Of a stretch of 64,000 bases of DNA, positions 31,584 to 52,481 are shown in pieces; position 1 is the stretch's first letter; every line of letters starts with the position of its first letter. The notes below the pieces were generated by a model that saw only the letters and a program-made list of their open reading frames with translations, was not told the origin of the DNA and made no database searches. This stretch comes from an uncultured Colwellia sp. (GTDB lineage: Bacteria; Pseudomonadota; Gammaproteobacteria; Enterobacterales; Alteromonadaceae): the NCBI GenBank assembly GCA_913058395.1, contig CAJXQI010000023.1:1-64000 (forward strand). Reading direction: 5' to 3'. Position numbers and translations under genes: made by a program.

Positions 31584-31590
31584 CGTTAGA

Positions 31591-32424: not shown

Positions 32425-32441
32425 GGGTTTACCCTATAAAT

Positions 32442-33368
32442 TTATGATGTTCTGTTACTTTTATTAGCGCCGGGGAAAAATATATTCGTTGTTTGCTGAT
32501 ACGCTTTATATTCTGGACGTTTCTGCAGTGAATAAAATTCAGACGGTACCGCGCCGGTATAAAATACTAAGGTGGTGTACATCATTCTTGAGGCCAGTAA
32601 CACACCAACACCTAATAACACCCATATCACTAATGACTCTTGTTGATAGAGAGCTAACCAAGAAGGAATAGCGGCAATCACAAGGCCGTTCCATACCATC
32701 CATTCGGCAAAATAATTCGGATGACGACTATATTTCCATAAGCCGACATTACAGACCTTGTTTTTCTCGCCTAATTTTTTCATCTTACGAAGAAACGCTA
32801 ATTTTTGCATATCAGCCAGTGTTTCCATAGCAAAGGCGCTCAGCCAGACAATAATACCGACTATTTCGAATATTGAAATATTTCCATCAGGATTTGTTGC
32901 AATTACAAAGGCTGGCATGGCAAGAAATGAAGCATTGGCTAAGCCCTGTAAAATAGCTTCAACCTGCATGGCTAACGCGGTATTGGTTTTACCTGCTTTT
33001 TGCCAGCGACGCTTTTGATATTCATAACGCGGAAATTCAGTTTTTAAATGACCAATTTTCCACATTTTTAACGCGCCAAGTCCCATTCTACTACCAGCAA
33101 AAATATAGGCGATACTGACAATAGCAACGCGAACACTATCACCTTCGCCATAAATCCAAGTCAGTATGCCAATGAGGGTAAGCCCCCACGGCCAGCCAAT
33201 ATCAACATATGACATTCGCCCTGTGCGCCAAGCGGGAATACAAACCACCAAGGTAAATAACAGCAGTTGCAATGTGCCATTAATAAAACCAACAAAGGCT
33301 AACGTTTCGGTGAAAAATAGTAAAACCCAACCCGCAATAAACAAAAATAACGGTGAAAAATATTTCAT
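32442..33368 (-). CDS. DUF1295 (steroid 5-alpha-reductase-like) membrane protein
   Basis: A 308-residue integral membrane protein with about eight hydrophobic segments. GLWKYSRHPNYFAEWMVW (about residues 212-229) is the conserved cofactor-binding block shared by DUF1295, isoprenylcysteine methyltransferase and steroid 5-alpha-reductase C-terminal domains, and FYTGAVPSEFYSLQKRPEYKAYQQTT follows. It would act on a lipid-like substrate in the inner membrane, either reducing an enone with NADPH or methylating. It sits between the Mo enzyme and the MoxR gene within the catabolic island, which suits a hydrophobic substrate. Confidence 0.85.
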   Translation of the reverse strand: MKYFSPLFLFIAGWVLLFFTETLAFVGFINGTLQLLLFTLVVCIPAWRTGRMSYVDIGWPWGLTLIGILTWIYGEGDSVRVAIVSIAYIFAGSRMGLGALKMWKIGHLKTEFPRYEYQKRRWQKAGKTNTALAMQVEAILQGLANASFLAMPAFVIATNPDGNISIFEIVGIIVWLSAFAMETLADMQKLAFLRKMKKLGEKNKVCNVGLWKYSRHPNYFAEWMVWNGLVIAAIPSWLALYQQESLVIWVLLGVGVLLASRMMYTTLVFYTGAVPSEFYSLQKRPEYKAYQQTTNIFFPGANKSNRTS

Positions 33369-33382
33369 TTTTTCTAATTCCT

Positions 33383-35497: not shown

Positions 35498-35569
35498 GCT
35501 TTTACCTAAAGTTGATACATAAAATGGCTTGGTCATATCTTATAAAAAGTTTTAAGCTATATTTCTCGC

Positions 35570-36301
35570 TTAAAGCTTCTCTTCAAACCATTTCTTGGTT
35601 AAACCAATAGAAACCATAGCTTTAAGTTTAAACAGCGCCATCCAATCACCTGACTCAGGCACAGCTTCGCCACAACGAGGGTCTGAGCGTTGTAAAGCGC
35701 CGGTCATTTTGTGGTCAATCGGAATAGGATCACAACCATGGTCAGATTCACAGATAAAATCCCAAGGTTCGCGCGCAGGCGCATGGCATGCAAAGCAGTT
35801 ACCATCGAAGCGATTATTTACATCAACAAAACCACGTTTTGCGATAGTTGAGCCGGTTTCATCAACTTGCAATTCAAAAAACTCCCAATCACCGGTTGCT
35901 GGCGAAGCACCCGCTTCGCGTTTAACCATCACTTCAGTTGGCACAAGTTGCACCACTGAACCAGCAGGATAAATAGCACCTTTCGGGTTATTCGCTGCGG
36001 TCAATGTAGCTTCAATATCACCTAAAACGTTATCGACATAAAAATGCCTTACCGGTGTCATATCGCGGATACAGCTAAAGGTTTCTTCAGTAATATTTAC
36101 CGGCAAGTCTTTTTTCGCGACGTCTTCATTGGAAACGACTTCTTTGAGTGTGGTTACCGCTTCTTTTACCGTTGATTTAAGTGTTTCAAATGCTGCGGTA
36201 GCGTTTTCTTTTACGTTATTGGTTTGGGCATATGTCGGTAATGACAGTAAACACGAGACCAAAACCAATGGCAGTGTTCTTTTTATTATTATATTGACCA
36301 T
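35570..36301 (-). CDS. exported haem-binding protein, cytochrome P460-like
   Basis: A 243-residue protein with a signal peptide (LPLVLVSCLLSLPTYA). The mature part carries one c-type haem motif, CFACH, near residue 160 (NRFDGNCFACHAP), and a two-sheet-like core with PAGSVVQLVPTEVMVKREAG and WEFFELQVDETG, as in cytochrome P460 family proteins. It would act in the periplasm. C-terminal cysteines (FICESDHGCDPIP) may form a disulfide. It lies between a CurA-like reductase and the Mo enzyme gene; a link to the Mo enzyme is inference. Confidence 0.72.
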   Translation of the reverse strand: MVNIIIKRTLPLVLVSCLLSLPTYAQTNNVKENATAAFETLKSTVKEAVTTLKEVVSNEDVAKKDLPVNITEETFSCIRDMTPVRHFYVDNVLGDIEATLTAANNPKGAIYPAGSVVQLVPTEVMVKREAGASPATGDWEFFELQVDETGSTIAKRGFVDVNNRFDGNCFACHAPAREPWDFICESDHGCDPIPIDHKMTGALQRSDPRCGEAVPESGDWMALFKLKAMVSIGLTKKWFEEKL

Positions 36302-37505: not shown

Positions 37506-38558
37506 TTAAGCGACTAAACTGCTAATGGGCTTTATTTGACTGATATTTTGCGCTTGGTAGAAAATTTTAAAGGCTTCTGCCAATTTCTCACTTTCCAAAA
37601 ACACCCGCTGCCAATACTGTAGGCGTTGCTCAGGCTCTAAGGTGGTAAAGTCCGTACGATCAGGAATTTTTCCATAGGGCAGTGAATCAATAAATTGTCG
37701 TGAAGGACAAACCAATACGGTTTTATCGTAATGTTTGGCTCGCACATTTCTTGATAACTTTTTATCAAACCAGCCGGCTTTTAGTGTTGAGCTAAAATGC
37801 GGATATAAAGTTAAGCCGTCTAACGCGACATCAAAATGATAATCGATAATACCGCCATCGCGATACATACCGTTTTCACAGTCAGCAATATCTTTTATCC
37901 CTTGCATCACCATAGGAATGGCACCTGATGCAAGCAATGCGTCTTTAATATTATGTTCAGTAAAAGCTAAGCGTGTTGTCGCGATATTATCAGGGTCATG
38001 AAGCTGTAACTGACTGGCCTGATGCTGAAAAACATAACGTTCGTACTGACTTTTTATTAACGAGCGATTGACACTATTGCGCAGCAAACTCATTAACAAA
38101 CCTAAGCCCAAGACCAACTTATTTTCAGAGCTAACAAAACCTCGACACTTAGCAACAACAAAATGGGCATTAAATATTTTATTATTCATGATTTCATTGG
38201 CGCCAGAATCACCAAATAAAATGTCTAATAATTCTCGTGCTTTTTCGGTTATTTCTTTTGGCTTAGCATCAGTTGAATAAACTGTTTCACTGTAATGCTT
38301 TGCGAGTCGTTCTATAGCGGCAACGGGATCAGCCTGAGCGAAACATGCCATTCTAAAAGCGCCAGCACTTGAACCAACTAAATTTAATGGCTGTTGTTGG
38401 TGTTTAAAAAAGTCACCAAAAAAGTATTTATCTAAACCATATAAAACAAACCATTTAGGCCCGCCACTGGCACCTAAAAAGTTATTAAAAATGTCTGGCG
38501 AAAAACCGTTTTCTTTAATGGTTTTTAACGCGGTGTCACCGGCGTAAATTTCTAACAT
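37506..38558 (-). CDS. patatin-like phospholipase
   Basis: About 350 residues from ATG 38558, preceded by AGGAAGA at a 12-base distance; the open frame also allows starts up to 38621. The oxyanion motif is FLGASGGPKWF (G-x-S-G-G-P-K type), the nucleophile elbow is LVGSSAGAF (G-S-S-A-G, near residue 65) and the catalytic Asp of a D-G-G motif is in CENGMYRDGGIIDYH. The enzyme would release fatty acids from lipids. It lies next to the fadD-like ligase gene, 69 bases away, so free fatty acid could be activated immediately. Confidence 0.88.
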   Translation of the reverse strand: MLEIYAGDTALKTIKENGFSPDIFNNFLGASGGPKWFVLYGLDKYFFGDFFKHQQQPLNLVGSSAGAFRMACFAQADPVAAIERLAKHYSETVYSTDAKPKEITEKARELLDILFGDSGANEIMNNKIFNAHFVVAKCRGFVSSENKLVLGLGLLMSLLRNSVNRSLIKSQYERYVFQHQASQLQLHDPDNIATTRLAFTEHNIKDALLASGAIPMVMQGIKDIADCENGMYRDGGIIDYHFDVALDGLTLYPHFSSTLKAGWFDKKLSRNVRAKHYDKTVLVCPSRQFIDSLPYGKIPDRTDFTTLEPEQRLQYWQRVFLESEKLAEAFKIFYQAQNISQIKPISSLVA

Positions 38559-38627
38559 ATTTATCGAGTGTCTTCCTAATATTGAGTGATTATGAGCAGC
38601 CATAGCCATAATATTTACCATAAATTA

Positions 38628-40283
38628 TTAGCGAAGCTCTTTTCGTAGCACTTTGCCAACATTGGTTTTTGGTAATTCTTCAAGAAAAACAACTTCTTTT
38701 GGACGCTTATAATTGGTTAATAACTCAGTACAATGCTCGATAACGTCACGCTCGGTTAAGTTCAGGTCTTTACGCACAACAAACACTTTGACCATTTCAC
38801 CTGTAGCATCGCTTGGCGCTGCTACAGCAGCAGCTTCTAAAATACCTTCATGACTCACCAGAACTTCTTCAATTTCATTAGGGAAAACATTAAAGCCAGA
38901 AACAATAATCATGTCTTTTTTACGATCGACAATGGTAAAGAAACCATTTTCATCCATGGTGGCAATATCACCCGTTGCTAACCAACCGTCTTTTAATACT
39001 TCGTCAGTTGCGTCTTGGCGATTATGATAGCCTCTCATCACTTGCGGGCCTTTTACCCACATTTCGCCAGGTTCACCAATAGCAACTTCTTTGCCATCAT
39101 CACCCATCAATCGTACATCTGTTGACGATGCAGGAAGACCAATAGTGCCATTGTAAGTTTCTTGATTGTAAGGGCTCATTGAAACTAACGGTGCACATTC
39201 AGTAAGGCCGTAACCTTCCAATAAACGTGTATTTGTTACTTTCTCCCAAAGCTCAGCAACCGGACGTTGCACTGACATACCGCCACCAAAGCCAAGTTTT
39301 AGTGCGCTAAAGTCAAGTTTATCGAAGCCTGGTGTGTGCAGTAGTGCATTAAATAAGGTATTTACACCTGTAATGGCAGTAAATGGATACTTGGCGAGCT
39401 CTTTGACAAATCCGTCCATATCTCTTGGATTGGTGATCAGCAAATTTTTACCACCGAACGGCATAAAGCATAAACAATTAGAGGTTAACGCATAAACATG
39501 GTACAGCGGCAACGCCGTTACCATGATCTCTTTACCGACTTCATAAACATTTTTTGTCGCGGCATTAGATTGTTCTAAATTGGCCACCATATTTCGATGT
39601 GTCAGCATGGCGCCTTTTGATGGCCCTGTTGTTCCACCAGTATATTGTAAAAAGGCCAGATCCTCACCTGTAACAGTTACAGAGCTAAAACTAAGCTTAC
39701 TGCCTTTAGCCATCACTTTATTAAACTTAATAGCATTAGGTAAATGATAAGCAGGCACCTGTTTTTTAACATATTTAAGTACGCAGTTTATTAATGTCCC
39801 TTTTAATACTCCTAAGCGGTCCCCAACACCTGTGGTAATCACATGTTCAACGTCAGTATCATCAATAACTTTTTCTAGCACATGCGCAAAATTTTCTAGA
39901 ATTAGGATGCCTTTCGCACCAGAGTCTTTTAATTGATGTTGTAATTCACGCGGTGTATAAAGCGGATTAACGTTTACCACAGTTAAACCTGCGATTAACG
40001 CGCCAAACAAGGCAATTGGATATTGTAAAGTATTGGGGATCATTATCGCGAACTTGTCACCTTTAACATAACCCAGATCTTTTTGTAGATATGCCGCAAA
40101 GTCGGTGGCCTGTTGAGCTAGTTCCTGATAACTAATACTGACATCCATATTAATAAAGGCAGTATTGCTGTTATACAGCTTGGTATACTTGAAAAATAGC
40201 TCTGCCAAAGAGCTGTATTTATCAGGATCTATTTCAAACTCAACGCCTGGTGGATAACTTTTTTCAAGCCAAATTTTTTCCAC
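38628..40283 (-). CDS. long-chain fatty-acid--CoA ligase
   Basis: A 551-residue ANL-superfamily ligase of the FadD type. The AMP-binding signature is [16 protein letters not shown] (about 208-223), followed by TEC-containing [17 protein letters not shown] near 355 and the hinge [21 protein letters not shown] near 440. It activates fatty acids to acyl-CoA with ATP. N-terminal extras of bacterial FadD are absent. The gene is in the minus-strand island between patatin and thiolase genes, and would supply acyl-CoA to the downstream enzymes. Confidence 0.93.
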
Positions 40284-40334
40284 AATACTTTCCTTTTTTT
40301 TAATTTATTATTTTACTTTGTGTTTTTCATAAGC

Positions 40335-41516
40335 CTAGAGCACTTCGAATAATCCTGCCGCCCCTTGTCCACCGCCAATGCACATACTGACCACAACATA
40401 CTTAACGCCACGACGTTTACCTTCAATTAGCGCGTGCATCACCATGCGTGTGCCGCTCATGCCATAAGGATGACCGATAGAAATTGCCCCGCCATTTACA
40501 TTTAAACGATCTTCTGGAATAGCCAATTTTTCAGCGCAGTAAAGTACTTGCACCGCAAAGGCTTCATTAATTTCCCATAACCCAATATCGTCCATGGTTA
40601 AGCCATTACGCTCAAGTAGCTTTGGAATTGCATAAATAGGGCCAATACCCATTTCATCAGGTTCACAACCAGCAACCACTAAACCGCGATAAGCCCCTAA
40701 CGGTGTTAAGCCACGTGCTTGGGCTAATTCGCGTTCCATCACTACAACGGCGGCAGCGCCGTCAGACAACTGTGAGGCATTACCACCGGTAATTGAACCA
40801 TTATCTTTTACGGCTTTTAAACCCGATAAGCCGTCTAAATTAGTTAATGGTCGATTACCTTCATCCTGCGTTAATGTCACCGATTCTTTGCTGACATCAC
40901 CGCTAGCTTTGTCCATAACCAATTTAGTACAAGTTACTGGCACAATTTCATCATCAAACTTACCATCAGCTTGTGCTTGTGCGGTGCGTTGCTGAGATTT
41001 CAGCGCATAAGCATCTTGCTGTGCGCGTGAAATGTTATAACGATTCGCAACAATTTCTGCGGTATCTAACATCGGCATGTAAATAGCGGGGCGATACGCT
41101 TTGACACTAGGGTCAACAGCCCGGTGCATATTCATGTTATCGTTTTGTACCAAACTGATAGAGTCACACCCGCCCGCAATAACCACATTAGCGCCATCAC
41201 AAACAATATGATTTGCCGCAGTGGCAATTGACATTAATCCTGATGAACATTGGCGATCAATAGTCATGCCGGGCACTGAAACCGGTAGCTCCGCCGCCAT
41301 TGCTACCTGTCGACCAAAGTTCATGCCTTGGTTACCTTGGGTTAACGCCGCACCGAAAATACAGTCGTCAATTTCATTTGGATCAATTCCTGCCCTTTCA
41401 ACAGCAGCCTTTACTGCAACTGCTGCCAAGGTTGGCGCTGATAAATCGTTAAAAGCACCGCGATAAGCTTTCCCGATGGGGGTACGTGCGACTGATACAA
41501 TGACGGCTTCTCTCAT
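40335..41516 (-). CDS. acetyl-CoA C-acyltransferase (thiolase)
   Basis: A 393-residue thiolase II family enzyme. The three catalytic residues are present: C90 in [11 protein letters not shown]349 in [10 protein letters not shown] and C379 in SMCIGGGQG. It begins [16 protein letters not shown]. It cleaves 3-ketoacyl-CoA to acetyl-CoA and a shorter acyl-CoA as the last step of beta-oxidation, in the cytoplasm. Chain-length preference cannot be read from the sequence. The gene is between the ligase gene and an SDR gene in the island. Confidence 0.95.
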
Positions 41517-41641
41517 GATGATTCCTGCTGAGTAATTTTTATATTTTATGTTTTAGAGCTATTTAACTTTCAAAGTACTGACATTTAAGAGTTTTAGGTT
41601 TGAAAGCCTTTGACCAACGGCAATTAATATTTTTATTATTG

Positions 41642-42562
41642 CTAGTGCTGCTGCGACTTCATAAACGCCATTGCTTTCATAACAAATTTTTCACCTTGTT
41701 TAGCCCCTGACGTTAATGATGCTTGTTTATCTTGAGCAATCAATTCATCCCAATGTTCACGTACCGTTTCTGGATTTTGCGAAGCTTGATGAATAAAGCA
41801 GCCTTGGGTTTCAAAAATGCTGGCACTTGAGTAACCACCAGCACCAGCACATAAAATAAAGCGATTTGGCGCATTTTCATCGCATAAGGTCAACATACCC
41901 GCCGTTACCGCTTCAGGCGCAAAAGCTTTAACAATTTCTTCAGGCATTAAATCTTCGGTCATGCGAGTACCTGCCGTTGGTGCTAAGGCATTAACATGAA
42001 TATTATTTTTTGCCCCTTCAAGCACTAACGTATTCATTAACCCTAATACCGCCATTTTTGCCGCACCGTAGTTCGACTGGCCAAAATTGCCGTACATGCC
42101 GCTAGAAGAGGTGGTCATAACAATACGGCCATAATTTTGCTCGCGCATAATATCCCAAACCGCTTTAGTACAATTGACGGTGCCCATAACATGCACGTCC
42201 ATCACTAATTTAAAATCTTCTAAGCTCATTTTGGTAAATGATTTATCGCGTAAAATGCCAGCGTTATTAATTAGAATATCAACACGTCCCCATTTATTCA
42301 TGGTTTGCATGACCATGTCTTGTACTTCGTCGAAATTAGCAACATTAGCACCATGGCTGATAGCTTTGCCGCCCATTTCTTCAATTAGGCGAACAACCTC
42401 TTGTGATGCTGCACTTGACGCACCACTACCATCACGAGCACCACCTAAGTCATTAACAACAACTTTTGCGCCACGCCTTGCTAATTCCAATGCATGCGAA
42501 CGCCCTAAACCGTTACCTGCACCGGTTACAATCGCGACTTGTCCTGCGAAACTGATGGTCAT
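41642..42562 (-). CDS. SDR oxidoreductase, HSD17B4-like 3-hydroxyacyl-CoA dehydrogenase
   Basis: A 306-residue short-chain dehydrogenase. The NAD site is VTGAGNGLGRSHALELARRGA (about residues 11-31) and the active site has S-x12-Y-x3-K: TTSSSGMYGNFGQSNYGAAKMAVLG near 150-175. NDLGGARDG near 38 and the long C-terminal tail with FETQGCFIHQASQNPETVREHWDEL match the peroxisomal bifunctional (HSD17B4/MFE-2) dehydrogenase domain. It would oxidise (3R)-hydroxyacyl-CoA. The adjacent MaoC gene encodes the matching R-hydratase, as in MFE-2 where both are fused. Confidence 0.9.
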   Translation of the reverse strand: MTISFAGQVAIVTGAGNGLGRSHALELARRGAKVVVNDLGGARDGSGASSAASQEVVRLIEEMGGKAISHGANVANFDEVQDMVMQTMNKWGRVDILINNAGILRDKSFTKMSLEDFKLVMDVHVMGTVNCTKAVWDIMREQNYGRIVMTTSSSGMYGNFGQSNYGAAKMAVLGLMNTLVLEGAKNNIHVNALAPTAGTRMTEDLMPEEIVKAFAPEAVTAGMLTLCDENAPNRFILCAGAGGYSSASIFETQGCFIHQASQNPETVREHWDELIAQDKQASLTSGAKQGEKFVMKAMAFMKSQQH

Positions 42563-42630
42563 ATTTTTTCCTTAAACATTTTTAATTTTTAACAGTATTA
42601 AACTTTTTATTTTTATTTACCTAAAAGGCG

Positions 42631-43092
42631 TTACTTGACCATTTGTACTGAAATCCACTCGGCAACTAACGCTGGAGTATCACAACCTTCAATTTCAATA
42701 GTGACTTGGGTAGATAAACGAAATTGTCCGGGCTTTTTCTCTTCAATTGATAGTGTTTTAGCATGAGCGCGTACACGGCTATTCACCGTTACGGGTTGTA
42801 AAAATCTAACTTTATCAAAGCCTGCATTTAGCCCCATATAAAAGCCATCAATAATGACACTGAAACTTTCAGCAAAATGAGACAGCATAGATAAGGATAA
42901 AAAACCGTGCGCAATTGTTGAACCAAATGGCGTTGCTTGCGCTTTTTCTTCATCCACATGAATGAACTGATGGTCGAATGTGCAGTCAGCAAATTGATTA
43001 ATTTGTGTTTGAGTTATTTGATGCCAGTCGGTTGGCTCGGTTTCAAAGCCAATAAATTTGGCTATTTCTTCTCTATTGATAACTGTCGGCAT
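42631..43092 (-). CDS. MaoC-family (R)-enoyl-CoA hydratase
   Basis: I choose ATG 43092, with AGGG 9 bases upstream on the minus strand; the open frame extends to 43131. The 153-residue product has the hydratase-2 motif near 45-70: FIHVDEEKAQ...PFGSTIAHGFLSLSML, with catalytic Asp and His. It would hydrate trans-2-enoyl-CoA to the (R)-3-hydroxy form for the neighbouring SDR. It is the first gene after the 43.2-kb promoter, so it leads the second transcription unit of the island. Confidence 0.93.
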   Translation of the reverse strand: MPTVINREEIAKFIGFETEPTDWHQITQTQINQFADCTFDHQFIHVDEEKAQATPFGSTIAHGFLSLSMLSHFAESFSVIIDGFYMGLNAGFDKVRFLQPVTVNSRVRAHAKTLSIEEKKPGQFRLSTQVTIEIEGCDTPALVAEWISVQMVK

Positions 43093-43171
43093 ATTCACTG
43101 TCCCTTTATGCTTCACATGACGATTGTTCACATGTCAAATATTGCTATGAATGAAATTTAAGCGATAACTC

Positions 43172-43242
43172 ATGCTAAGCGGGACGGTAAAATTAAACAA
43201 ATGAATAGTTTTGATATCTATATATTTACAGTGCGAATAGTT
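43172..43242 (-). promoter_or_regulatory. island promoter 2 with LysR-type upstream sites
   Basis: On the minus strand -35 TTGTTT (43195-43200) and -10 TAGCAT (43172-43177) are 17 bases apart. GAATAGTT half-sites (plus-strand reading) at 43203-43210 and 43235-43242 lie upstream, 32 bases apart. A 21-base block at 43190-43210 is identical to one at 51430-51450, and the same hexamers and spacing recur there. This promoter serves the MaoC gene and those behind it. The features are seen; the regulator is inferred to be the LysR protein at 51570. Confidence 0.75.
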
Positions 43243-43293
43243 AAAGGATTTATTGGGCGATGTGAACATTAAATAAATGAAGAGCTTAAAAGT

Positions 43294-43314
43294 AAAAAAA
43301 CATTATCGATAATG
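43294..43314 (-). terminator. possible terminator: palindrome with T-run
   Basis: CATTATCGATAATG (43301-43314) is a perfect 14-bp palindrome followed on the minus strand by seven T. The stem (5 bp around a TCGA loop) is weak and AT-rich, so it may be an operator or a weak terminator about 130 bases past the stop of the acyl-CoA dehydrogenase gene. Confidence 0.4.
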
Positions 43315-43445
43315 CTATCGACAATATTTTTTAATTTATATTTTTTATTTTGAATTAGGTAGTGCCACAATGCATTACGAACACACACATTGGTTTGATT
43401 CTATTTTTTAACCAGAGTTGACGCTAACTTAAAAACCTTAGGTTA

Positions 43446-45251
43446 TTAAAACCACTCTGCCTGCATATCAAAGCTTGTGCTGTCAGTACTAACTAAAACT
43501 TTTTGCCACATAGCGACTTGCGGTAATTCAATTCGATAAAAGTACTGTAATGCTTGTAATTTTCCTTGGTAGAAATGTTTATCGTCCTTGTGCGGTTGCT
43601 CAGCTAAAGCATTGCTTGCAACAATACCTTGTTTTAGCCATAGCCACGCAATAATCACGTGACCAAACATTGATAAGTAGCTCACAGAATTAGCCAAAGC
43701 TAGGTCGATGTTTTTAGTCGACATATCCTTTAATACTGCTTCAGTTGTACTGTTTAGCGTATTAAGCGCTGTAGCTAATTGCGCTGAAAATTCATCTAGA
43801 CTGGCAATTTCCTTAGCGATAGCAATGGTTTTATTCATTTCACTTATAGTTGCTAAATAACCTTTCATATTATTCATTGGCACTTTGCGAGCGATAAGAT
43901 CTAACGATTGAATACCTGTGGTACCTTCATGAATAGCATTAAGGCGATTATCACGATAAAACATCTCCACCGGATGTTCATTAATATAACCGTGGCCACC
44001 TAATACTTGAATGGCATAGGAATTGGCTTTTGGCCCGTATTCTGATGGCCAGGTTTTAATAATCGGCGTTAAAAAATCTAATAAGGTATGAGCATATTCA
44101 CGTTGTTCTTCTGAAGGCGCGGTTTTCTCATCATCACTTAACTGCGTGCCATAAAGCACCAGTGCCATTGCACCTTCTGCATAAGCTTTTTGTGCCAAAA
44201 GCATACGGCGAACATCGGCATGTTCAATAATATTAACCATCGGCGAAAGTGGATCTTTACAAGAGGGCAAACGACCTTGAGGACGGTTTTTCGCATAATC
44301 GAGTGAATATTGAAAACCAGCACTTGCCAGCACTGCACCACTGGTACCGACCATAATGCGTGCTTCATTCATCATATGAAACATGTACTTAAGGCCTTGA
44401 TTCTCTTCGCCAACTAAGTAAGCAACTGAGCCATTTTTTTCACCAAAGCTTAATGCCGTTGATGTTTGCGCCTTACCCCCCATTTTGTGGAATAGGCCAG
44501 CAAGCGCCACCTCATTATCAACGCCGATGGAACCATCATCATTGAGTAAAAATTTAGGCACAACAAACAGTGAAATGCCTTTTACCCCTTTAGGCGCACC
44601 TTGCACACGCGCAAGCACTAAATGAACAATGTTTTCACTTAAGTCGTGATCGCCACCAGAAATGAAAATTTTACTGCCTGAAACTCGATAACTGCCATCG
44701 CTTGCTTTTACAGCTTTGGTTGATAAGTCACCTAAACCTGAGCCACTGCCGGGCTCAGTCATCGCCATGGTGCCCATAAAGCGCCCGTCTAACATTGGTT
44801 TTACCCATGTGTCGATCAATTCTTTACTAGCATGGGCTTGTAGTAAGTTAGCATTGGCGGTGGTTAACATGTTGTAACCCATACCAACACCACCGGCAAT
44901 GGTAAGATAAGTAGCTGCAGCACTGGCAACAATTGGCGGTAATTGCATACCACCTAATTCATAATCTGCCGTTGCAGAGCCAATACCAGAAGCATTAACC
45001 GCTGCAATGGCGGGTTTAAGCTCTGGAATTAAATGCACTTTTTTACCATCAAAGGCCGGTTGATGAGTATCTAGCTTCTGACGAATAGGAAGAAAATGCT
45101 TCTCTGCAATTGCTTTTGCCGTATTAATAACTTCATTAAATGTTTGACGGTCATGGTCTTGATAGCGCTCTCTGCCAATTAGCCCTTCACTATCAAATAG
45201 TTCATAAAGCATAAACTCCAAATCACGCTCATTTATCATTGCTGCTGCCAT
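43446..45251 (-). CDS. acyl-CoA dehydrogenase with C-terminal extension
   Basis: A 601-residue FAD-dependent dehydrogenase. ITVAGGVGMGYNML near 122 and MAMTEPGSGSGLGDLSTKA (about 167-185) form the FAD/substrate core. YRDNRLNAIHEGTTGIQSLDLIARKV near 445-470 has the likely catalytic Glu (HEGTTGIQ). The C-terminal 120 residues are the extra helical domain of the long (DUF-tailed) acyl-CoA dehydrogenases. It introduces the trans-2 double bond. It is the last gene before the 43.2-kb promoter region and follows an SDR gene by 70 bases. Confidence 0.93.
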   Translation of the reverse strand: MAAAMINERDLEFMLYELFDSEGLIGRERYQDHDRQTFNEVINTAKAIAEKHFLPIRQKLDTHQPAFDGKKVHLIPELKPAIAAVNASGIGSATADYELGGMQLPPIVASAAATYLTIAGGVGMGYNMLTTANANLLQAHASKELIDTWVKPMLDGRFMGTMAMTEPGSGSGLGDLSTKAVKASDGSYRVSGSKIFISGGDHDLSENIVHLVLARVQGAPKGVKGISLFVVPKFLLNDDGSIGVDNEVALAGLFHKMGGKAQTSTALSFGEKNGSVAYLVGEENQGLKYMFHMMNEARIMVGTSGAVLASAGFQYSLDYAKNRPQGRLPSCKDPLSPMVNIIEHADVRRMLLAQKAYAEGAMALVLYGTQLSDDEKTAPSEEQREYAHTLLDFLTPIIKTWPSEYGPKANSYAIQVLGGHGYINEHPVEMFYRDNRLNAIHEGTTGIQSLDLIARKVPMNNMKGYLATISEMNKTIAIAKEIASLDEFSAQLATALNTLNSTTEAVLKDMSTKNIDLALANSVSYLSMFGHVIIAWLWLKQGIVASNALAEQPHKDDKHFYQGKLQALQYFYRIELPQVAMWQKVLVSTDSTSFDMQAEWF

Positions 45252-45321
45252 ACGATTCTCTTTATTCGTTAAGAAGTTAAAACATGTGATCTTATTTAGT
45301 TATTTTCTTGGCTCATGTTTG

Positions 45322-46083
45322 CTAGGTCGCGGATACGCCACCATCGACTGCGATACATTGTCCTGTTAAGTATGTATTAGCAGGTGATAACATCATTAGC
45401 ATCATAGCAACGATTTCTTTAGGCTCTCCTAAGCGGTTCATTGGCGCACCACGGCCCATTTTGTTTTGCTTTTCTTCGTCAGCAAAATTGGTCACCATTG
45501 GTGTTAAGGTAAAGAAAGGACAAATTGCATTGATTCGAATATTATTGCGACCGTATTCAACCGCACCGGTTTTGGTTAGCCCAATAACAGCATGTTTCGC
45601 CATAGAATAGGCACTACCACGCGCTGCACCGCCCAAACCAGCCATAGAGCTAACATTAAGAATAATGCCTTCCCCCTGCTGCAACATTTGTTTTATTTGA
45701 TGGCGCATACCAAATTGCACACCTTTAACATTGATGGCAAATTGACTGTCCATTAAGGTTTCATCAATATCATGCAATGGCATAAATTCATGGGCAATAC
45801 CGGCATTGTTTACGCCAATATCGACACATCCAAATGTTTCAATGGCGGCATCGACCATGGCTTTACATTGCTCATTTTTAGAGACATCGCATTTCATTGC
45901 TAAAACTTCTGCACCAGTAGCGGCAATTGCATCAGCCACTTTATGAACGCCCGCTTCATTAATATCACTTATGACTAATTTCGCGCCACGTTTAGCCAAC
46001 TCTTCAGCCAGTAGCTGACCAAAACCTTGCGCAGCGCCAGTAATAACGGCAACTTTACCGGTAAAATCTAACAATGGATCCAT
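45322..46083 (-). CDS. SDR family oxidoreductase
   Basis: A 253-residue classic short-chain dehydrogenase: VITGAAQGFGQLLAEELAKRG at residues 12-32, NNAGIAHEF near 89-97, and the active site S-x12-Y-x3-K in NVSSMAGLGGAARGSAYSMAKHAVIG. The end GQCIAVDGGVSAT is typical. It probably oxidises a 3-hydroxyacyl-CoA or another secondary alcohol. LvaD, in the levulinate operon of Pseudomonas putida, is an SDR encoded next to a kinase and an acyl-CoA dehydrogenase-like enzyme, like this gene and its neighbours; this is a comparison, not proof. Confidence 0.92.
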   Translation of the reverse strand: MDPLLDFTGKVAVITGAAQGFGQLLAEELAKRGAKLVISDINEAGVHKVADAIAATGAEVLAMKCDVSKNEQCKAMVDAAIETFGCVDIGVNNAGIAHEFMPLHDIDETLMDSQFAINVKGVQFGMRHQIKQMLQQGEGIILNVSSMAGLGGAARGSAYSMAKHAVIGLTKTGAVEYGRNNIRINAICPFFTLTPMVTNFADEEKQNKMGRGAPMNRLGEPKEIVAMMLMMLSPANTYLTGQCIAVDGGVSAT

Positions 46084-46130
46084 GATGATGTCCCTATAAA
46101 AAAGATTGAATGTTATTGTTGTTAATATTT

Positions 46131-47192
46131 TTATTCGTTTTTAGGTTTTGTTTTATTTTCTTTTTCTTGGGCAATAATTTCTAAAGCCATTTTTGCTAAC
46201 GGCTCGACAAACGTACCAATTTTACTGGCATTAGCATTAGAGGCGTTACCTTGCGATGCCCTTTTAGCCACGCCTTGAACAATGGCGGCTAAACGGAAAA
46301 AACCAAAGGTAAGATAAAACGTCCAATTTTCTATCTTGTCGATGTTCATACGTTGACAATATTGCGCAATATATTCTTCTTCGCTTGGAATACCCAAACT
46401 GCTGCGGTCAATGCCTTTTAAGCCATCAATACTGCCTAAACCTTGCGGCATACGTAATCCCATACATTGATAAGCCAAATCTGAAAATGGATGTCCTAAG
46501 GTAGAAAGTTCCCAGTCCAATATCGCCATAATCTCAGGCTTGTCTTTCGCAAACATAATATTGTCTAAACGATAATCACCATGCACTAAACATATACGGC
46601 CATCATCTTCAGGTAGGTTGGCTTCTAACCATTGTCCTAGTGTATTCATAGCTGGAATATCTTGTAGTTCAGAGGCTTTGTATTGTGCTAACCAGCGTTC
46701 CAGTTGGCGCTTAAAATAATTACCCATTTTGCCGTAGTCACTTAAACCAACCTTTTCAATATCCACACTGTGCAGCGCTACTAAGGCTTTATTCATGGCG
46801 TCATACATCGCTGTTCTACGGTGATTATCTTCAATTTCAGTTAACGATGCATGCCAATAAATACTGCCGTCACAAAACTCCATCAAATAGAACATTGAAC
46901 CCATAATGTTGGTGTCTAGACAAAGGTGATAAACCTGAGCCACAGGGACATCACTATTTTTAAGCGCATCTAGTACTCTAAACTCACGATCAACCGCATG
47001 GGCTGATTTCAATAATTTACCGGGGGGTTGCCGACGTAAAACATAAGTACCTGACTGAGCAATTACTTTAAAGGTAGGGTTTGACTGCCCTCCTGGAAAC
47101 TTATCTAAGCTTATCGGTCCTTTAAAGCCGGCAACGTGGTGCTCGAGGTAATTCGTTAAAACATCCATATCAATGGCTAAAGCATTTGGCAT
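46131..47192 (-). CDS. phosphotransferase, ACAD10/11 kinase-domain type
   Basis: A 353-residue protein of the aminoglycoside phosphotransferase (APH) fold. FPGGQSNPTFKV (phosphate-binding loop, near residue 28), YVLRRQPPGKLLKSAHAVDREFRVL, the catalytic HGDYRLDNIMF near 205-215 and the metal-site ILDWELSTLGHPFSDLAY near 223-240 all match. This type forms the N-terminal kinase domain of vertebrate ACAD10/11 and LvaA in Pseudomonas, which phosphorylate 4-hydroxyacyl-CoA. It is 45 bases downstream of an ACAD11-like dehydrogenase gene, so the two enzymes probably act in sequence. Confidence 0.9.
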   Translation of the reverse strand: MPNALAIDMDVLTNYLEHHVAGFKGPISLDKFPGGQSNPTFKVIAQSGTYVLRRQPPGKLLKSAHAVDREFRVLDALKNSDVPVAQVYHLCLDTNIMGSMFYLMEFCDGSIYWHASLTEIEDNHRRTAMYDAMNKALVALHSVDIEKVGLSDYGKMGNYFKRQLERWLAQYKASELQDIPAMNTLGQWLEANLPEDDGRICLVHGDYRLDNIMFAKDKPEIMAILDWELSTLGHPFSDLAYQCMGLRMPQGLGSIDGLKGIDRSSLGIPSEEEYIAQYCQRMNIDKIENWTFYLTFGFFRLAAIVQGVAKRASQGNASNANASKIGTFVEPLAKMALEIIAQEKENKTKPKNE

Positions 47193-47237
47193 TTATTCAC
47201 TACTCTTAATTAAAATAATTGGCGCGATGGCAATAAA

Positions 47238-48449
47238 TCATTCTGCCTTTTGCTTAACTAAATCTCGCCCTAATTGCATCATATGTACTTGATCAGGGCC
47301 ATCAGCTAAACGTAAGGTTCTTTGCCCTGCATAGGCATGCGCTAAGAAAGTATCTTGGCTAACACCGACGGCACCATGACACTGAATAGCCCGATCTAGG
47401 ACATCAAGTGACATATTCGGCGCTACAATTTTGATCATGGCAATTAAGTCTTTAGCCGCTTTATTACCTTCGGTATCCATTTTATGCGCAGCTTTTAAGG
47501 TCATTAAGCGGGCTTGTTCAATTTGACAAGCAGATAAGGCAATATCTTCACGAATAGATTGTTGTTTGATCATAGGACGACCAAAAACAATACGTTCATT
47601 GACGCGTTTACACATTAGATCTAATGCCCGTTGAGCAACACCAATTGAGCGCATGCAATGATGTACACGCCCTGGCCCTAATCGGCCTTGAGCAATTTCA
47701 AAACCTTTACCTTCACCGACAATAATATTTTCTACCGGTACTCGAACATTTTCAAAGGTAATTTCGGCATGCCCTTCTGGTGCATCAACATAACCAAACA
47801 CTTGCATAGGGCGAACAACGGTTACCCCAGGCGTTTTCATAGGTACTAATACTTGCGATTGCTGAATGTAACGATTGCTATTTTCCGGATCGGTTTTTCC
47901 CATCACAATCATGACTTCACATTGTTTACGACAAGCACCACTAATATAAAACTTACGGCCGTTAATAACGTACTCGTCACCTTCACGATCAATTCGTAGT
48001 TCAATATTGGTTGCATCGCTTGAAGCAACTTCGGGTTCAGTCATCGCGAAAGCAGAACGGATTTTCCCTTCTAAGAGTGGCTCTAACCATTGTTTTTTCT
48101 GTGCTTCACTGCCATATTTTGCCAATACTTCCATATTGCCAGTATCAGGTGCTGCACAATTGAAAACTTCAGGCCCCCACATCACTTTACCCATGATTTC
48201 AGCAAGCGGTGCATATTCTAAATTGGTTAAACCAGCACTATATTTACCATAGGCGACAGGAAGAAATAAATTCCATAAACCCGCGGCTTTTGCTTTTGCT
48301 TTTAGCTCTTCCATTAATGCTGGTGTCGTCCATTGGTCTTTAGCAACAAGATCATGCATTTCTTGTTCAACAGGAAAAACATGATCATCCATAAAATCAG
48401 ATACCTGTTTAATAAGTTTTTGAACTTTTTCGCTATATTCAAAATTCAT
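47238..48449 (-). CDS. acyl-CoA dehydrogenase, ACAD10/11-like
   Basis: I choose ATG 48449 (AAGGA 7 bases upstream); the frame extends to 48479. The 403-residue protein matches the ACAD10/11 dehydrogenase domain: [16 protein letters not shown] near 145, [21 protein letters not shown] near 174, and [20 protein letters not shown] at the end. In this group the usual catalytic Glu region reads DGPD-x-VH, with Asp in place of Glu. ACAD10/11 and LvaC remove phosphate from a 4-phosphoacyl-CoA to give an enoyl-CoA or 3-hydroxyacyl-CoA. Its gene precedes the kinase gene. Confidence 0.9.
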
Positions 48450-48485
48450 CGTATGGTCCTTATTTAATCTTGTTAACAAGCAAAT

Positions 48486-49622
48486 TTAGCTTAATGACAT
48501 TAGTGACTTTTTAGTAAAAGGTTTAATTTCTTCAATCGCGTTAACGCCGATTTTATTGACCCAATCAGGGTCAACTAGCAATGCGCGTCCAATGGCAACC
48601 AAATCAAACTCATTGTTGCCTAAGCGTTCAAGTAGTTCTTCAATCCCAGTTGGATTCGAGGTACCTGATAAGTCTTTATTGCCTTCGCCAATAAAGTCAG
48701 CGTCTAAGCCAACATTACCCACGGTAATAACAGGTTTATCGGTTAATTTTTTCGTCCACCCCGCTAGATTTAAATCCGAGCCTTCAAATTCACTGACCCA
48801 AAAACGGCGCGTACTCGCATGAAATACATCAACGCCAGCATCACTAAGTAAACCTAAAAATATACCTAATTCTTCAGGTGTTTGACAAAGCTTGGCACTG
48901 TAATCTTGTTGCTTCCATTGAGAAAATCTAAATATTATCGTGAAATCTTCACCAACAGCAGCGCGTATGGCTTGGACAATTTCAACACCAAAGCGCGTAC
49001 GATTTTTTAACGAGCCACCGTATTGGTCGTCACGTTGATTAGTGCCTTGCCAAAAGAATTGGTCTACTAAATAACCATGAGCACCATGAACTTCAATGGC
49101 GTCAAAACCTATGTTTTTCGCATCAAGTGCAGCTTGCGCGAATGATGCAACAACTTCATCTATATCGGCTTGAGTCATTGCAACACCATTTTCAGCGCCC
49201 GGCTTAAATAAACCTGACGGGCTATATGCCGGTACTTCTTTATCTGGACCTACACCTAGTTTTCTCACTGAGCCCACATGCCACAATTGTGGTGCAATTT
49301 TACCACCAGCGGCGTGTACTTCATCAACCACGTGCTTCCAACCAGCAAGTGCTTCTTCACCATGAATAGCTGGCACATTTTCATAACCATTAGCACCTTT
49401 ATGTGAAATGAAGGTACCTTCGGTAATAATTAGACCAACATTACCTTCAGCACGCCTGCGGTAATATGCTGCAACGTCTTTTGACGGTATGTTGTTCGGA
49501 GAAAACGCACGTGTCATAGGTGCCATTACCGTTTTATTTTTTAGTGTTAATGACTTAACTGAAAACGTTTTAAATAATGCGTCTGTATTGGTGCTGGCTG
49601 TTGTGTCTGTGTTCGTCGTCAT
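48486..49622 (-). CDS. Old Yellow Enzyme family flavin oxidoreductase
   Basis: A 378-residue FMN enzyme. KNKTVMAPMTRAFSP near 28-42, PQLWHVGS near 110, VEVHGAHGYLVDQFFWQGTNQRDDQYGGSLKNRTRF near 173-210 split over the His-His substrate site, and a final LVAIGRALLVDPDWVNKI match the NADH:flavin oxidoreductase/OYE family (12-oxophytodienoate reductase type). OYEs reduce activated C=C bonds of enones, enals and nitro compounds with NAD(P)H. This fits unsaturated or oxidised acyl substrates. It is in the middle of the upstream transcription unit. Confidence 0.92.
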   Translation of the reverse strand: MTTNTDTTASTNTDALFKTFSVKSLTLKNKTVMAPMTRAFSPNNIPSKDVAAYYRRRAEGNVGLIITEGTFISHKGANGYENVPAIHGEEALAGWKHVVDEVHAAGGKIAPQLWHVGSVRKLGVGPDKEVPAYSPSGLFKPGAENGVAMTQADIDEVVASFAQAALDAKNIGFDAIEVHGAHGYLVDQFFWQGTNQRDDQYGGSLKNRTRFGVEIVQAIRAAVGEDFTIIFRFSQWKQQDYSAKLCQTPEELGIFLGLLSDAGVDVFHASTRRFWVSEFEGSDLNLAGWTKKLTDKPVITVGNVGLDADFIGEGNKDLSGTSNPTGIEELLERLGNNEFDLVAIGRALLVDPDWVNKIGVNAIEEIKPFTKKSLMSLS

Positions 49623-49685
49623 AAATATTTTCTCGTAATTTTTAATATGCTTAAGATAAAGCGCTATTTAGCAATTATTTTGGAA

Positions 49686-50456
49686 TTAGCCAATCAGGTA
49701 TCCACCGTCAACATTAATAGCGGTGCCGGTAGTGTAGCTTGATGCATCTGACACTAAATACAGTACCGTACCTGCCATTTCATCGGGTTGAGCAACACGC
49801 TTCATTGGCACATGTGCCATGGCTTGCTCTAAAATTTTGGGATTGTTCACTAAGGTCGAGGCAAACTTAGTGTCTGTTGCACCTGGCAATAAGGCATTAA
49901 CACGAATATTGAATTGCGCGCATTCTTTAGCAAAAGCTTTTGTCATCGAAATAACCGCCGCTTTCGTAATAGAATAAATACCTTGGAAGTCACCAGGTAT
50001 CACACCATTAATAGAAGCGACATTGACAATGCTGCCGCCATCACTATCTCTCATTAACTTAGCGCCTAGTGTCGACATAAAGAAATAACCACGAATATTG
50101 ACATCAACCGTTTTCTGAAAGGCACTTAAATCAGTATCTAAAATATGACCAAAATATGGGTTAGCGGCGGCATTGTTCACTAAAATATCTAGCTTGCCGT
50201 GTTGCTCGGCAATACTGGCAAAAATAGCATCAATTTGATCCATTTCTCCGATATGACAAGCTATCGCTTGCGCACTGCCGCCTGCTTTCGTTATATCATC
50301 AACAACAGCTTGGCAGCCTGCAATTTTTCGACTTGAAACAATAACGTGTGCGCCATGCTGAGCAAGTAACTTGGCGATACTTTCACCAATACCTCGGCTA
50401 GCACCGGTAACTAATGCGATTTTTCCTGATAAATCAAATAAATTGCCATTATTCAT
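49686..50456 (-). CDS. SDR family oxidoreductase
   Basis: A 256-residue short-chain dehydrogenase. VTGASRGIGESIAKLLAQHGA at residues 16-36 binds NAD(P); LVNNAAANPYFGH is near 88; the active site is NVASINGVIPGDFQGIYSITKAAVISM. The C-terminus GTAINVDGGYLIG is typical. It is probably a 3-hydroxyacyl-CoA or 3-ketoacyl reductase-type enzyme. It is the second gene of the upstream unit, directly behind the histidine phosphatase gene. Confidence 0.92.
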   Translation of the reverse strand: MNNGNLFDLSGKIALVTGASRGIGESIAKLLAQHGAHVIVSSRKIAGCQAVVDDITKAGGSAQAIACHIGEMDQIDAIFASIAEQHGKLDILVNNAAANPYFGHILDTDLSAFQKTVDVNIRGYFFMSTLGAKLMRDSDGGSIVNVASINGVIPGDFQGIYSITKAAVISMTKAFAKECAQFNIRVNALLPGATDTKFASTLVNNPKILEQAMAHVPMKRVAQPDEMAGTVLYLVSDASSYTTGTAINVDGGYLIG

Positions 50457-50498
50457 GATGTTCCCTACTTAAATTTTGGTTAATTTTTTAACAAGTGA

Positions 50499-51233
50499 TT
50501 ATCTAAAAGTAATCCAGTCATCGCCTGCTTGTTCCAAATGACTATAGTTATTCAAATAATCAACACTAAGCATGTTTTCAGAAAATAGCAGTTTAGTTAC
50601 GCTAGTATTTCTAGCTTGCTGATTAATTTCTAATGCTTGTTGATCACTGAGTTTTAATATGTGCTGTACGATCACTGAAATAGTACCGCCAGAGGTAAAA
50701 ACTAAGATGTCTTTTGAATTTTTAGACTCATTGCCCTCAGCGTTAACCTTACGTTTGTTGGCAAGCTCCTGGGCAATAATATCGTGCAGTGCTCTTATGC
50801 AGCGTGTTTTAAACTCAAGCCAGCTCTCTTTATACTCTTGGTCTTTATCACCAGAAACCCAACGATTAAGCGCTTGAGCAAATTCTTTTTGAAAAGTTTT
50901 GTTTGGCTCTTTAAGTTGGTTAATTTCTTCGCTCATTTTTGTCAGGTCTTGCCATTGAGCTTGATAGTTTTTTAAGATATCAACATGGTCAAACTCATTA
51001 AAACCAGAGTGAATAATCATTGGTGTAGCAGCACCTTGATAGCCTTCTTTAAAGCTAGATAAAGTTTGGCTGTGACGTAATAAGTCACCAGAATAAAATT
51101 TGCTCGGATTAGCTCGCGCACGCCAATACTGGCCTAGCAACTCAGCCTGTTTGCTACCTTTTTCGGATAACTGATCATAGTCAGCGCTACCAAAAGATGC
51201 CTGACCATGACGGATCAAATAAATTGCTGCCAT
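50499..51233 (-). CDS. histidine phosphatase family protein
   Basis: A 244-residue phosphatase. The catalytic RHG motif is YLIRHGQASFGSADYDQLSEKG at residues 5-26, with the second catalytic His in the VFTSGGTISVIVQH region and Arg from LLRHSQT near 55. It would remove phosphate from a small molecule. It is the first gene after the 51.4-kb promoter. With a kinase and ACAD10/11-like enzyme in the same unit, a role in removing a misplaced phosphate (metabolite repair) is possible but unproven. Confidence 0.88.
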   Translation of the reverse strand: MAAIYLIRHGQASFGSADYDQLSEKGSKQAELLGQYWRARANPSKFYSGDLLRHSQTLSSFKEGYQGAATPMIIHSGFNEFDHVDILKNYQAQWQDLTKMSEEINQLKEPNKTFQKEFAQALNRWVSGDKDQEYKESWLEFKTRCIRALHDIIAQELANKRKVNAEGNESKNSKDILVFTSGGTISVIVQHILKLSDQQALEINQQARNTSVTKLLFSENMLSVDYLNNYSHLEQAGDDWITFR

Positions 51234-51411: not shown

Positions 51412-51482
51412 ATGCTAAGCCTAGCATCTAAATTAAACAAATGAATAGTTCTAATACCCTACTATTTGTATTTTAAATAGTA
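51412..51482 (-). promoter_or_regulatory. island promoter 1 with LysR-type upstream sites
   Basis: On the minus strand -35 TTGTTT (51435-51440) and -10 TAGCAT (51412-51417) are 17 bases apart. Upstream, GAATAGTT lies at 51443-51450 and AAATAGTA at 51475-51482, 32 bases apart, the same spacing as at 43.2 kb. TACTATTT/AAATAGTA arms (51460-51482) also form an 8-bp inverted repeat. The layout suits a LysR-type activator site (recognition plus activation sites) next to the promoter and also near the divergent LysR gene. Confidence 0.78.
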
Positions 51483-51569: not shown

Positions 51570-52481
51570 ATGAAAATTGATTTGAATTTGTTCGTTGTGT
51601 TCGATGCAATATATTGTGAGGGTAATATTACCAAAGCCGCATCGGTACTGAATTTATCGCAACCAGCAGTCAGTCACTCTTTAGGAAAATTGCGTACTTA
51701 TTTTGATGATGCTTTGTTTATTCGCCAAGGTAATGAAATGAGGCCGACCCCGGTTGCAAAAAATGTTATTGACGATGTACGAGAAGCGCTACATCAATTA
51801 CAAGTTTGTTTAGTACAGTCACGGCAATTTGAGCCATTAACCTCTCGAAAGAACTTTTCACTTTCACTGCACGGTTCATTAGAGCCCTATTATTTACCCA
51901 TACTGCAAGAAAGCTTGTCGGTAGAATCTCCAGCAATAAACTTGCGAAGTAATAGACGAGTGAGGCGAAGTGAGCTAGAAAACAAATTAGCCAGCGGCGA
52001 TATAGACTTAGCTATTGATGCGCTGATCCCCGTCAGCAATAATATTTTGCACACACAACTAGAGCTAGACCAATTGGTTGTTGTCGCGCGCAAGAACCAC
52101 CCAGCGATTAAAGGCAAACTCGATTTAGAGACTTACCTTAGCTTAGAGCATGTATTGGTGTCATCTAGATCAACAGGCCCTGGTTTGGAAGATTTTGAAT
52201 TATCTCGCATTGGCTTACATCGCAAAATATCATTACGCTGTCAGCATGCAATATCAGCTTGTCGAGTGATAATTAGTAACGACATGCTGCTTACTTTGCC
52301 AAAGACAGCAGCAAAAATGTATAGTGAAATGCTCGATATTACCACTTATCCAATGCCTGTTGACTTGCCTGGAATTGATGTTCATTTGTACTGGCATGTT
52401 AATGTTGACAAAGAGCCTGCAAATAAGTGGTTGAGAAATAAAATGATCATGGCGGCGTCAAATACAAAAATTTCAACGTAA
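51570..52481 (+). CDS. LysR-family transcriptional regulator
   Basis: A 303-residue LysR-type regulator, starting MKIDLNLFVVFDAIY with the winged helix at about residues 5-60: GNITKAASVLNLSQPAVSHSLGKLR. The remaining part is the periplasmic-protein-like effector-binding domain. AATGGAGTAAGT-type ribosome site precedes the ATG. It is divergent from the acyl-CoA island, the standard arrangement for a LysR regulator of a catabolic operon. It probably activates both promoters at 51.4 and 43.2 kb on sensing a pathway intermediate; this is inference from position and shared sites. Confidence 0.93.
   Translation: MKIDLNLFVVFDAIYCEGNITKAASVLNLSQPAVSHSLGKLRTYFDDALFIRQGNEMRPTPVAKNVIDDVREALHQLQVCLVQSRQFEPLTSRKNFSLSLHGSLEPYYLPILQESLSVESPAINLRSNRRVRRSELENKLASGDIDLAIDALIPVSNNILHTQLELDQLVVVARKNHPAIKGKLDLETYLSLEHVLVSSRSTGPGLEDFELSRIGLHRKISLRCQHAISACRVIISNDMLLTLPKTAAKMYSEMLDITTYPMPVDLPGIDVHLYWHVNVDKEPANKWLRNKMIMAASNTKIST

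Follow-up and report, generated by a model that had tools for sequence, protein, structure and literature searches.

In animals, 4-hydroxy fatty acids are degraded by ACAD10 and ACAD11, in which a kinase and a dehydrogenase-like domain are fused (PMC12440821, PMC11342911). The acyl-CoA dehydrogenase (ACAD) domain of the animal enzymes removes the phosphate of 4-phosphoacyl-CoA (PMC11342911). The same work describes bacterial kinases with up to 51% and 38% identity to the kinase domains of ACAD10 and ACAD11, respectively, as well as a separate kinase and ACAD of Burkholderia pseudomallei (Q63VL0 and its partner) that each substitute the matching part of ACAD10 in vitro. A similar logic of kinase, ACAD, short-chain dehydrogenase (SDR) and CoA ligase is found in the lva operon (LvaA-LvaE) of Pseudomonas putida (PMC6692424, PMC12440821), where LvaA is only 29% identical to the ACAD10/11 kinases (PMC11342911). 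Here we describe a kinase and ACAD gene pair in a stretch of 64,000 nucleotides from an uncultured Colwellia sp. (contig CAJXQI010000023.1), which as a whole we call the window. The pair belongs to a putatively LysR-controlled unit that very probably feeds 4-hydroxy, and probably also 4-oxo or 4-oxo-2-ene, fatty acids into beta-oxidation. It is a further member of the already known split ACAD10/11 kind, and the less expected part of the unit is the recurrent gene at its head, which encodes a histidine-phosphatase-fold protein (HP) with an altered histidine.

Compared with the solved structures, the window ACAD finds human ACAD11 first (2wbi, E 4.7e-132), followed by two mouse ACAD11 chains (2.3e-131 and 1.1e-130) and 4hr3, named a putative acyl-CoA dehydrogenase (1.5e-124), after which the remaining matches are at E 1e-41 or weaker. 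The determinants reported for mouse ACAD11, R626, R631, H634, R637 and D753 (PMC12440821), align with R256, R261, H264, R267 and D383 of the window protein. R256, R261, H264-C265-M266-R267 and D383 show no variation in 124 of 124 homologues, the alignment having been restricted beforehand to sequences more than 45% identical to the window ACAD. Both the HCMR motif formed by residues 264 to 267 and the upstream phosphate-binding Arg (R256) of the ACAD10/11-type enzymes are therefore present. A preliminary description of the window, made from the letters of the sequence, had pointed to the DGPDQVH ending of this protein and to the position of its Asp. The C-terminus indeed reads LADGPDQVH, with Asp383 in the place usually taken by the catalytic Glu, and the Glu of an ordinary acyl-CoA dehydrogenase was not seen in the window protein or in the 124. 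By these residues the ACAD is of the ACAD10/11 type and a phosphate-eliminating activity is predicted for it.

The best structural matches of the kinase are 3dxp, which is named a putative acyl-CoA dehydrogenase (E 1.5e-108), mouse ACAD11 (1.5e-77 and 2e-76) and 9o56 (1.5e-44). An alignment of 162 kinases shows no exception at eight positions, namely H204, D206, N211, D226, E228, R162, R69 and E70. D206 and N211 correspond to the APH-fold catalytic D220 and N225 of mouse ACAD11, R162 to its CoA-binding R176, and R69 to the Arg beside the alphaC Glu. For this second CoA-binding Arg the published number is R86, and a count on the mouse chain puts the Arg beside the Glu two lower. We call type A the kinases with at least 40% identity to that of the window and type B those with about 30-38%. 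In a FastTree tree of 163 kinase sequences, which was rooted on the distant kinase of locus L166 and did not include ACAD10 and LvaA, the window kinase and mouse ACAD11 meet in a clade of 90 leaves with a support of 0.998, the smallest that unites them; it contains none of the nine type-B loci checked, and the one type-B member tested is closer to 9o56. The window kinase thus groups with the kinase of mouse ACAD11, and we predict for it a 4-hydroxyacyl-CoA kinase activity. It has no second copy in the window's genome at E <= 0.001, and a type-A kinase is found in 25 of the 79 genomes sampled from the window's own family (at least 54% identity).

Over nearly their full length the window kinase and ACAD are homologous to mouse ACAD11, and they share with the vertebrate ACAD11 and ACAD10 the catalytic Asp residues, the HCMR motif and the phosphate-binding Arg. 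They differ in being two genes instead of the one chain of ACAD11, and in having HP as a neighbour where ACAD10 has a HAD domain. The preliminary description had proposed a split ACAD10/11 module, and this is borne out by the top matches to ACAD11 structures, the determinant residues and the grouping of the kinase; the coordinates of the two genes, their domains (Pfam) and the spacing of exactly 45 bases were also right. It is true as well that the genes are separate, but this is not special. The B. pseudomallei pair, to which we liken that of the window by description only, is also a separate kinase and ACAD, and because these were already shown to replace the parts of ACAD10 (PMC11342911) the window pair is not new in kind. 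The likeness to LvaA and LvaC that had been proposed stands for the shared logic of the lva operon, but less so for the kinship of the kinase, which is probably nearer to ACAD11. The window further differs from P. putida in having no LvaB-like gene, in having its own beta-oxidation genes in the run, and in its LysR regulator in place of the sigma54-dependent LvaR. Fused bacterial kinase-ACAD genes were considered for seven kinase matches in open frames of 632-885 amino acids, and rejected: judged by eye and with no domain search, the four viewed (L167, L171-L173), as well as L126 (519 amino acids), hold only a kinase behind a stretch resembling an open-frame artefact of GC-rich DNA.

A possible counterpart of HP has been described in one cluster. 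The lva cluster of P. citronellolis LA18T holds a kinase, a 'histidine phosphatase family protein', an ACAD and an SDR together, with no lvaB found among them, and its phosphatase was proposed to possibly remove the phosphate of 4-phosphovaleryl-CoA; the kinase of this cluster differs from ours in being 59% identical to LvaA (PMC6692424). This mention, of a single strain, is the one that we found in the literature on a phosphatase-like partner; the searches otherwise listed a paper on the mitochondrial phosphoproteome, PMC7926622 and PMC10728186. The model of the window HP has a pLDDT of 94.7 and its fold matches PGAM5 (6cni_A, Z 21.9, root-mean-square deviation 2.5, 178 residues aligned) and PhoE (1h2e, Z 20.4). 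With these and CobC, of branch 1 of the histidine phosphatases, HP shares the RHG motif with the nucleophile His9, the second Arg (Arg53) and Glu80. It departs from them at the second catalytic His of the superfamily, which is replaced by Ser181 (within FTSGG in the window HP) in 122 of 122 members. This Ser lies opposite a His in all five alignments shown from a profile search against the solved structures, which gave 64 matches. R8, H9, R53, E80, W125, G183 and N209 are as invariant as S181 in the 122, and the third residue of RHG is Gly or Ala. The 122 are the window HP, 41 sequences from the genome samples and 80 from named genomes, all gathered by family similarity; the count therefore shows that within the family the Ser is fixed, but gives no measure of how rare a Ser is in other proteins. 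For the named genomes we used the 80 best of at least 588 loci, which had been preselected by a motif at the first His (L[IV]RH[GA]QASF) and not at the Ser; they come from gamma-, beta- and alphaproteobacteria, myxobacteria, actinobacteria (Actinoplanes, Leekyejoonella) and others. Six further plasmid copies, which we chose from 41 matching plasmid records, also read TSGG, the one from Deinococcus being without the ASF part of the motif.

HP recurs with the module. The sample of the window's family contains 42 HP places, and 38 of these have a kinase no more than 5 kb away, in every case on the strand of HP; a kinase match is present in 38 of 39 genomes with HP versus 5 of 40 without (Fisher p 7e-16, kinship ignored), and we reject the view that HP is a chance neighbour. 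The class sample, with the window's own genome included, has 12 of 16 HP places near a kinase, and in the phylum sample 45 of 47 HP genomes have a kinase match somewhere in the genome; the three samples overlap. More widely, kinases of this kind have HP as a recurrent neighbour in Proteobacteria, Myxococcota and Deinococcota. In 65 of the best 80 named loci HP has within 5 kb a kinase, an ACAD with more than 45% identity or the oxidoreductase that we call SDRa (more than 60%); the kinase is there in 46, always on the same strand and in 30 cases at 0-25 bases, and the ACAD in 59, again always on the same strand. The other 15 include loci at contig edges and loci with a LysR gene beside HP, and others, among them the two actinobacterial ones, have neither kinase, ACAD, SDRa nor LysR as neighbour. 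In the myxobacterial L265, L267 and L270 a type-B kinase directly precedes HP. On plasmids of Deinococcus, Pseudoalteromonas, Azospirillum, Ideonella, a Rhodobacteraceae strain and Caballeronia, HP lies in annotated phosphotransferase/ACAD clusters in the orders ACAD-(SDR)-phosphotransferase-HP or HP-phosphotransferase-SDR-ACAD, with kinase and HP at most 24 bases apart or overlapping. In L194, L195 and L197 a protein of about 103 amino acids is found between HP and a type-B kinase; it is of the SCP2 sterol-carrier type by Pfam on the L197 copy, which the other two resemble. These three loci have SDRa and, in the stretch examined, no ACAD of more than 45% identity. We take their family to be Pseudomonas, as a named P. 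fluorescens HP is 71% identical to the HP of its member G351.

The view from the kinase was obtained with 120 loci picked by kinase matches, 100 of type A and 20 less similar to the window kinase. In 67 of these the same strand carries, at a distance of up to 4 kb, an ACAD with more than 45% identity to that of the window (in 7 more it is on the other strand), which argues that the adjacency of kinase and ACAD is not due to chance. After clustering, the same-strand neighbours within 4 kb are any ACAD (73 loci), SDR (63), HP (41), zinc-type/quinone oxidoreductase (21), MaoC (12), acyl-CoA ligase (10) and the flavin oxidoreductase OYE (9, one of them only 27% identical). SDRa recurs beside the module at 68-91% identity in the loci having a match above 55%, and travels with HP and the kinase. 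The SDR that the preliminary description had joined to the pair, here SDRb, does adjoin the kinase, in near relatives as well, but the more characteristic SDR is SDRa. A SurE-family protein (Pfam; L163, 8358-9197) is a same-strand neighbour in four of the 120 loci (L129, L159, L163 and L164), all four without HP. Phosphatase activity is frequent among SurE proteins, and in these loci another phosphatase may take the place of HP.

An LvaB partner had been reported as not obvious, and this is confirmed: the gaps of the gene run contain no non-overlapping open reading frame of LvaB size, and Pfam DUF6285, which we take to be the family of LvaB, has no match in the window's genome. At L166 (5890-7282) a distant APH kinase, 24% identical to that of the window, overlaps a DUF6285 gene by eight bases. 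From its sequence this kinase with its small neighbour would be an arrangement parallel to that of the kinase and HP. A P. putida-type lva operon to serve as a reference was not found in 30 ACAD loci of the presumed Pseudomonas family (1.5-kb flanks), in which the ACAD is mostly beside its own LysR gene (26 loci) and in 3 beside a kinase.

The pair is part of a run of twelve genes in one direction (37506-51233) with the gene of the LysR-family regulator divergent from it (Table 1); SDRb, kinase and ACAD are open and full length. Nearly the whole gene order is kept in the near relatives L086, L088 and L109. Judged by family, the unit holds enzymes for activation, dehydrogenation and hydration together with a candidate hydroxyacyl dehydrogenase and a thiolase, so that it can plausibly run whole rounds of beta-oxidation. 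It is uncertain if the patatin-like protein is part of it, a gene retained in several relatives.

Table 1. Features of the unit and its regulator in the window, in the order of transcription of the run.
Feature	Position	Strand	Basis
Divergent LysR-family regulator	51570-52481	+	NCBIfam search
Palindrome CTATTT-N7-AAATAG between lysR and HP	51462-51480		Alignment of 9 intergenic regions
HP, histidine-phosphatase-fold protein, 244 amino acids	50499-51233	-	Pfam His_Phos_1, E 2.6e-21
SDRa, oxidoreductase	49686-50456	-	NCBIfam PRK07035, 473 bits vs cut-off 373
OYE, NADH:flavin oxidoreductase	48486-49622	-	Pfam Oxidored_FMN, E 2.9e-70
ACAD10/11-type acyl-CoA dehydrogenase, 403 amino acids	47238-48449	-	Three classical ACAD Pfam domains
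ACAD10/11-type kinase, APH fold, 353 amino acids	46131-47192	-	Pfam APH, E 2.8e-50
SDRb, short-chain dehydrogenase, 253 amino acids	45322-46083	-	Pfam
601-amino-acid acyl-CoA dehydrogenase with Acyl-CoA_dh_C	43446-45251	-	Pfam PF12806, E 1.6e-34
MaoC-type hydratase	42631-43131	-	Pfam
SDR, 306 amino acids, likely 3-hydroxyacyl-CoA dehydrogenase (role from family)	41642-42562	-	Pfam
Thiolase (acetyl-CoA C-acyltransferase)	40335-41516	-	TIGR01930, E 5.5e-127, passes cut-off
AMP-forming acyl-CoA ligase, FadD-like	38628-40283	-	AMP-binding, E 3.3e-86
Patatin-like protein, far end of the run	37506-38621	-	Pfam Patatin, E 8.1e-08

A divergent LysR gene stands beside the module in many loci. We aligned nine of the intergenic regions between lysR and HP, omitting four of more than 900 bases, and read the arms of the palindrome by eye. 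It is kept with compensating changes: L109 has the same arms as the window, L085 reads CTATTC-N7-GAATAG, L091 CTATTCG-N5-CGAATAG and L095 TTATTC-N7-GAATAA. There is one mismatch in L086, L087 and L090, and the palindrome is weak in L092. A scripted test of these regions for 5-base arms 5 apart found none. The palindrome is likely the operator of the LysR protein, to which we assign it as putative. Two other parts of the window were read from the sequence only. Downstream of the unit on the same strand (30411-36301) are a molybdopterin-type oxidoreductase, a DUF1295-like protein, a MoxR/VWA-like pair and a small protein with a CFACH haem-binding-like motif, and at 14041-14535 a short open reading frame resembles by eye part of an IS-type transposase.

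An Asp-bearing split pair inside a beta-oxidation unit is best read as serving the catabolism of 4-hydroxy acids, as had been proposed. In the pathway that we envisage the ligase would form the CoA ester, and OYE with SDRa and SDRb would reduce 4-oxo(-2-ene) forms to the 4-hydroxyacyl-CoA. The kinase, using ATP and Asp206, would then phosphorylate the 4-hydroxyl of the CoA ester. In the ACAD, Asp383 would remove the alpha proton while Arg256, His264 and Arg267 hold the phosphate, which is expelled to give the 2-enoyl-CoA with no net electron transfer. This mechanism is taken from the ACAD10/11 papers (PMC12440821, PMC11342911), and what is seen in the window are the residues. Going by their families, the MaoC hydratase, the SDR, the thiolase and the 601-residue ACAD would finish the rounds of beta-oxidation. 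SDRa is our candidate for the 4-oxo/4-hydroxy oxidoreductase and OYE, whose family reduces activated C=C bonds, for the ene-reductase. The presence of OYE and the SDRs suggests that 4-oxo-2-enoic or 4-oxo acids may also be fed in, for example lipid peroxidation products or algal oxylipins. HP would restrain the build-up of 4-phosphoacyl-CoA or of the corresponding free acid, either through a weak phosphatase activity or through an effect on the kinase.

Several observations weigh against parts of this picture. No HP was seen in 73 of the 100 type-A loci, mostly of families other than the window's, in stretches of up to about 20 kb of which some reach contig edges, so that the link of HP to the kinase does not hold throughout. 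Of the 48 HP places of the phylum sample, with the window's own genome left out, only 24 have a kinase within 5 kb. At the genome level the data do not support HP and LvaB being strict alternatives: among 299 genomes DUF6285 is found in 24, HP in 47 and both in 3 (G367, G431 and G467), where about 3.8 would be shared by chance. The 4-oxo-2-ene step is weakened by the distribution of OYE, which at 63-91% identity is a neighbour in 8 of the 120 kinase loci (two more are at 26-27%) and in this close form is limited to near relatives and L114. Finally the residues leave the chain length and the substrate unfixed, and the pathway is a prediction from sequence.

What HP does can be explained in more than one way. 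It may, as the preliminary description had considered, be an active repair phosphatase that returns a dead-end 4-phospho fatty acid, or surplus 4-phosphoacyl-CoA, to the 4-hydroxy form, an explanation to which we give a little less than an even chance. This would fit the invariant nucleophile with both Arg residues and the Glu, and the formation of 4-phosphohexanoate by mammalian cells, for which hydrolysis of the CoA adduct is suspected by the authors (PMC11342911). It also suits a shared metabolite that a single HP is present in 36 of the 39 HP genomes of the family sample, including 10 of the 13 that have two kinases (out of 43 genomes with a kinase). The loss of the second catalytic His in every member argues against it, although replacing a catalytic His of the rat fructose-2,6-bisphosphatase costs less than tenfold in activity, whereas flea proteins without the catalytic residues have lost activity and bind ligands instead (PMC10728186, for the rat enzyme citing others). 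Binding without hydrolysis would make HP a partner or brake of the kinase, a counterpart of the incomplete HAD domain of ACAD10 that replaces LvaB, which seems possible to us though on balance doubtful. One catalytic Asp is missing from this HAD domain, which keeps the kinase in check while its phosphatase activity is negligible (PMC11342911), and the P. citronellolis cluster has a histidine phosphatase gene, with no lvaB found (PMC6692424). The close same-strand spacing of kinase and HP in the named loci and the DUF6285 gene overlapping the more distant L166 kinase point the same way. However, a protein that only binds would have no need to keep the nucleophile with both Arg residues and the Glu. 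HP and DUF6285 also co-occur in some genomes, and HP is away from the kinase in half of the phylum sample; the binding to the kinase is itself a prediction, and the link of LvaB to DUF6285 is presumed.

A more trivial explanation is that an ordinary acyl-CoA dehydrogenase happens to lie beside an unrelated APH kinase. Pfam and NCBIfam do give the two proteins only generic or sub-cut-off names, but with Asp383, the HCMR motif and Arg256 in the ACAD, a kinase that groups with ACAD11 and the adjacency of the two in many loci, we consider this very improbable. Our own reading is that HP may curb the 4-phosphoacyl-CoA step, as a weak phosphatase or as a partner of the kinase. We arrive at such a restraint because the incomplete HAD domain of ACAD10 restrains its kinase and because HP has an altered phosphatase site. 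A broader version, in which the HP family, with its invariant change of His to Ser, would govern the 4-hydroxyacyl-CoA kinases of several bacterial phyla, appears rather unlikely at present.

It was only in 2024-2025 that the breakdown of 4-hydroxy fatty acids in animals was assigned to ACAD10/11. In the bacterial unit the two enzymes are separate proteins and have a phosphatase-like neighbour that recurs, which makes the control of the kinase step directly testable. The unit also suggests what a widespread 'histidine phosphatase family protein' might do. If true, an HP governor would be an independent solution to the control problem that is met by the incomplete HAD domain in ACAD10 and perhaps by LvaB in P. 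putida.

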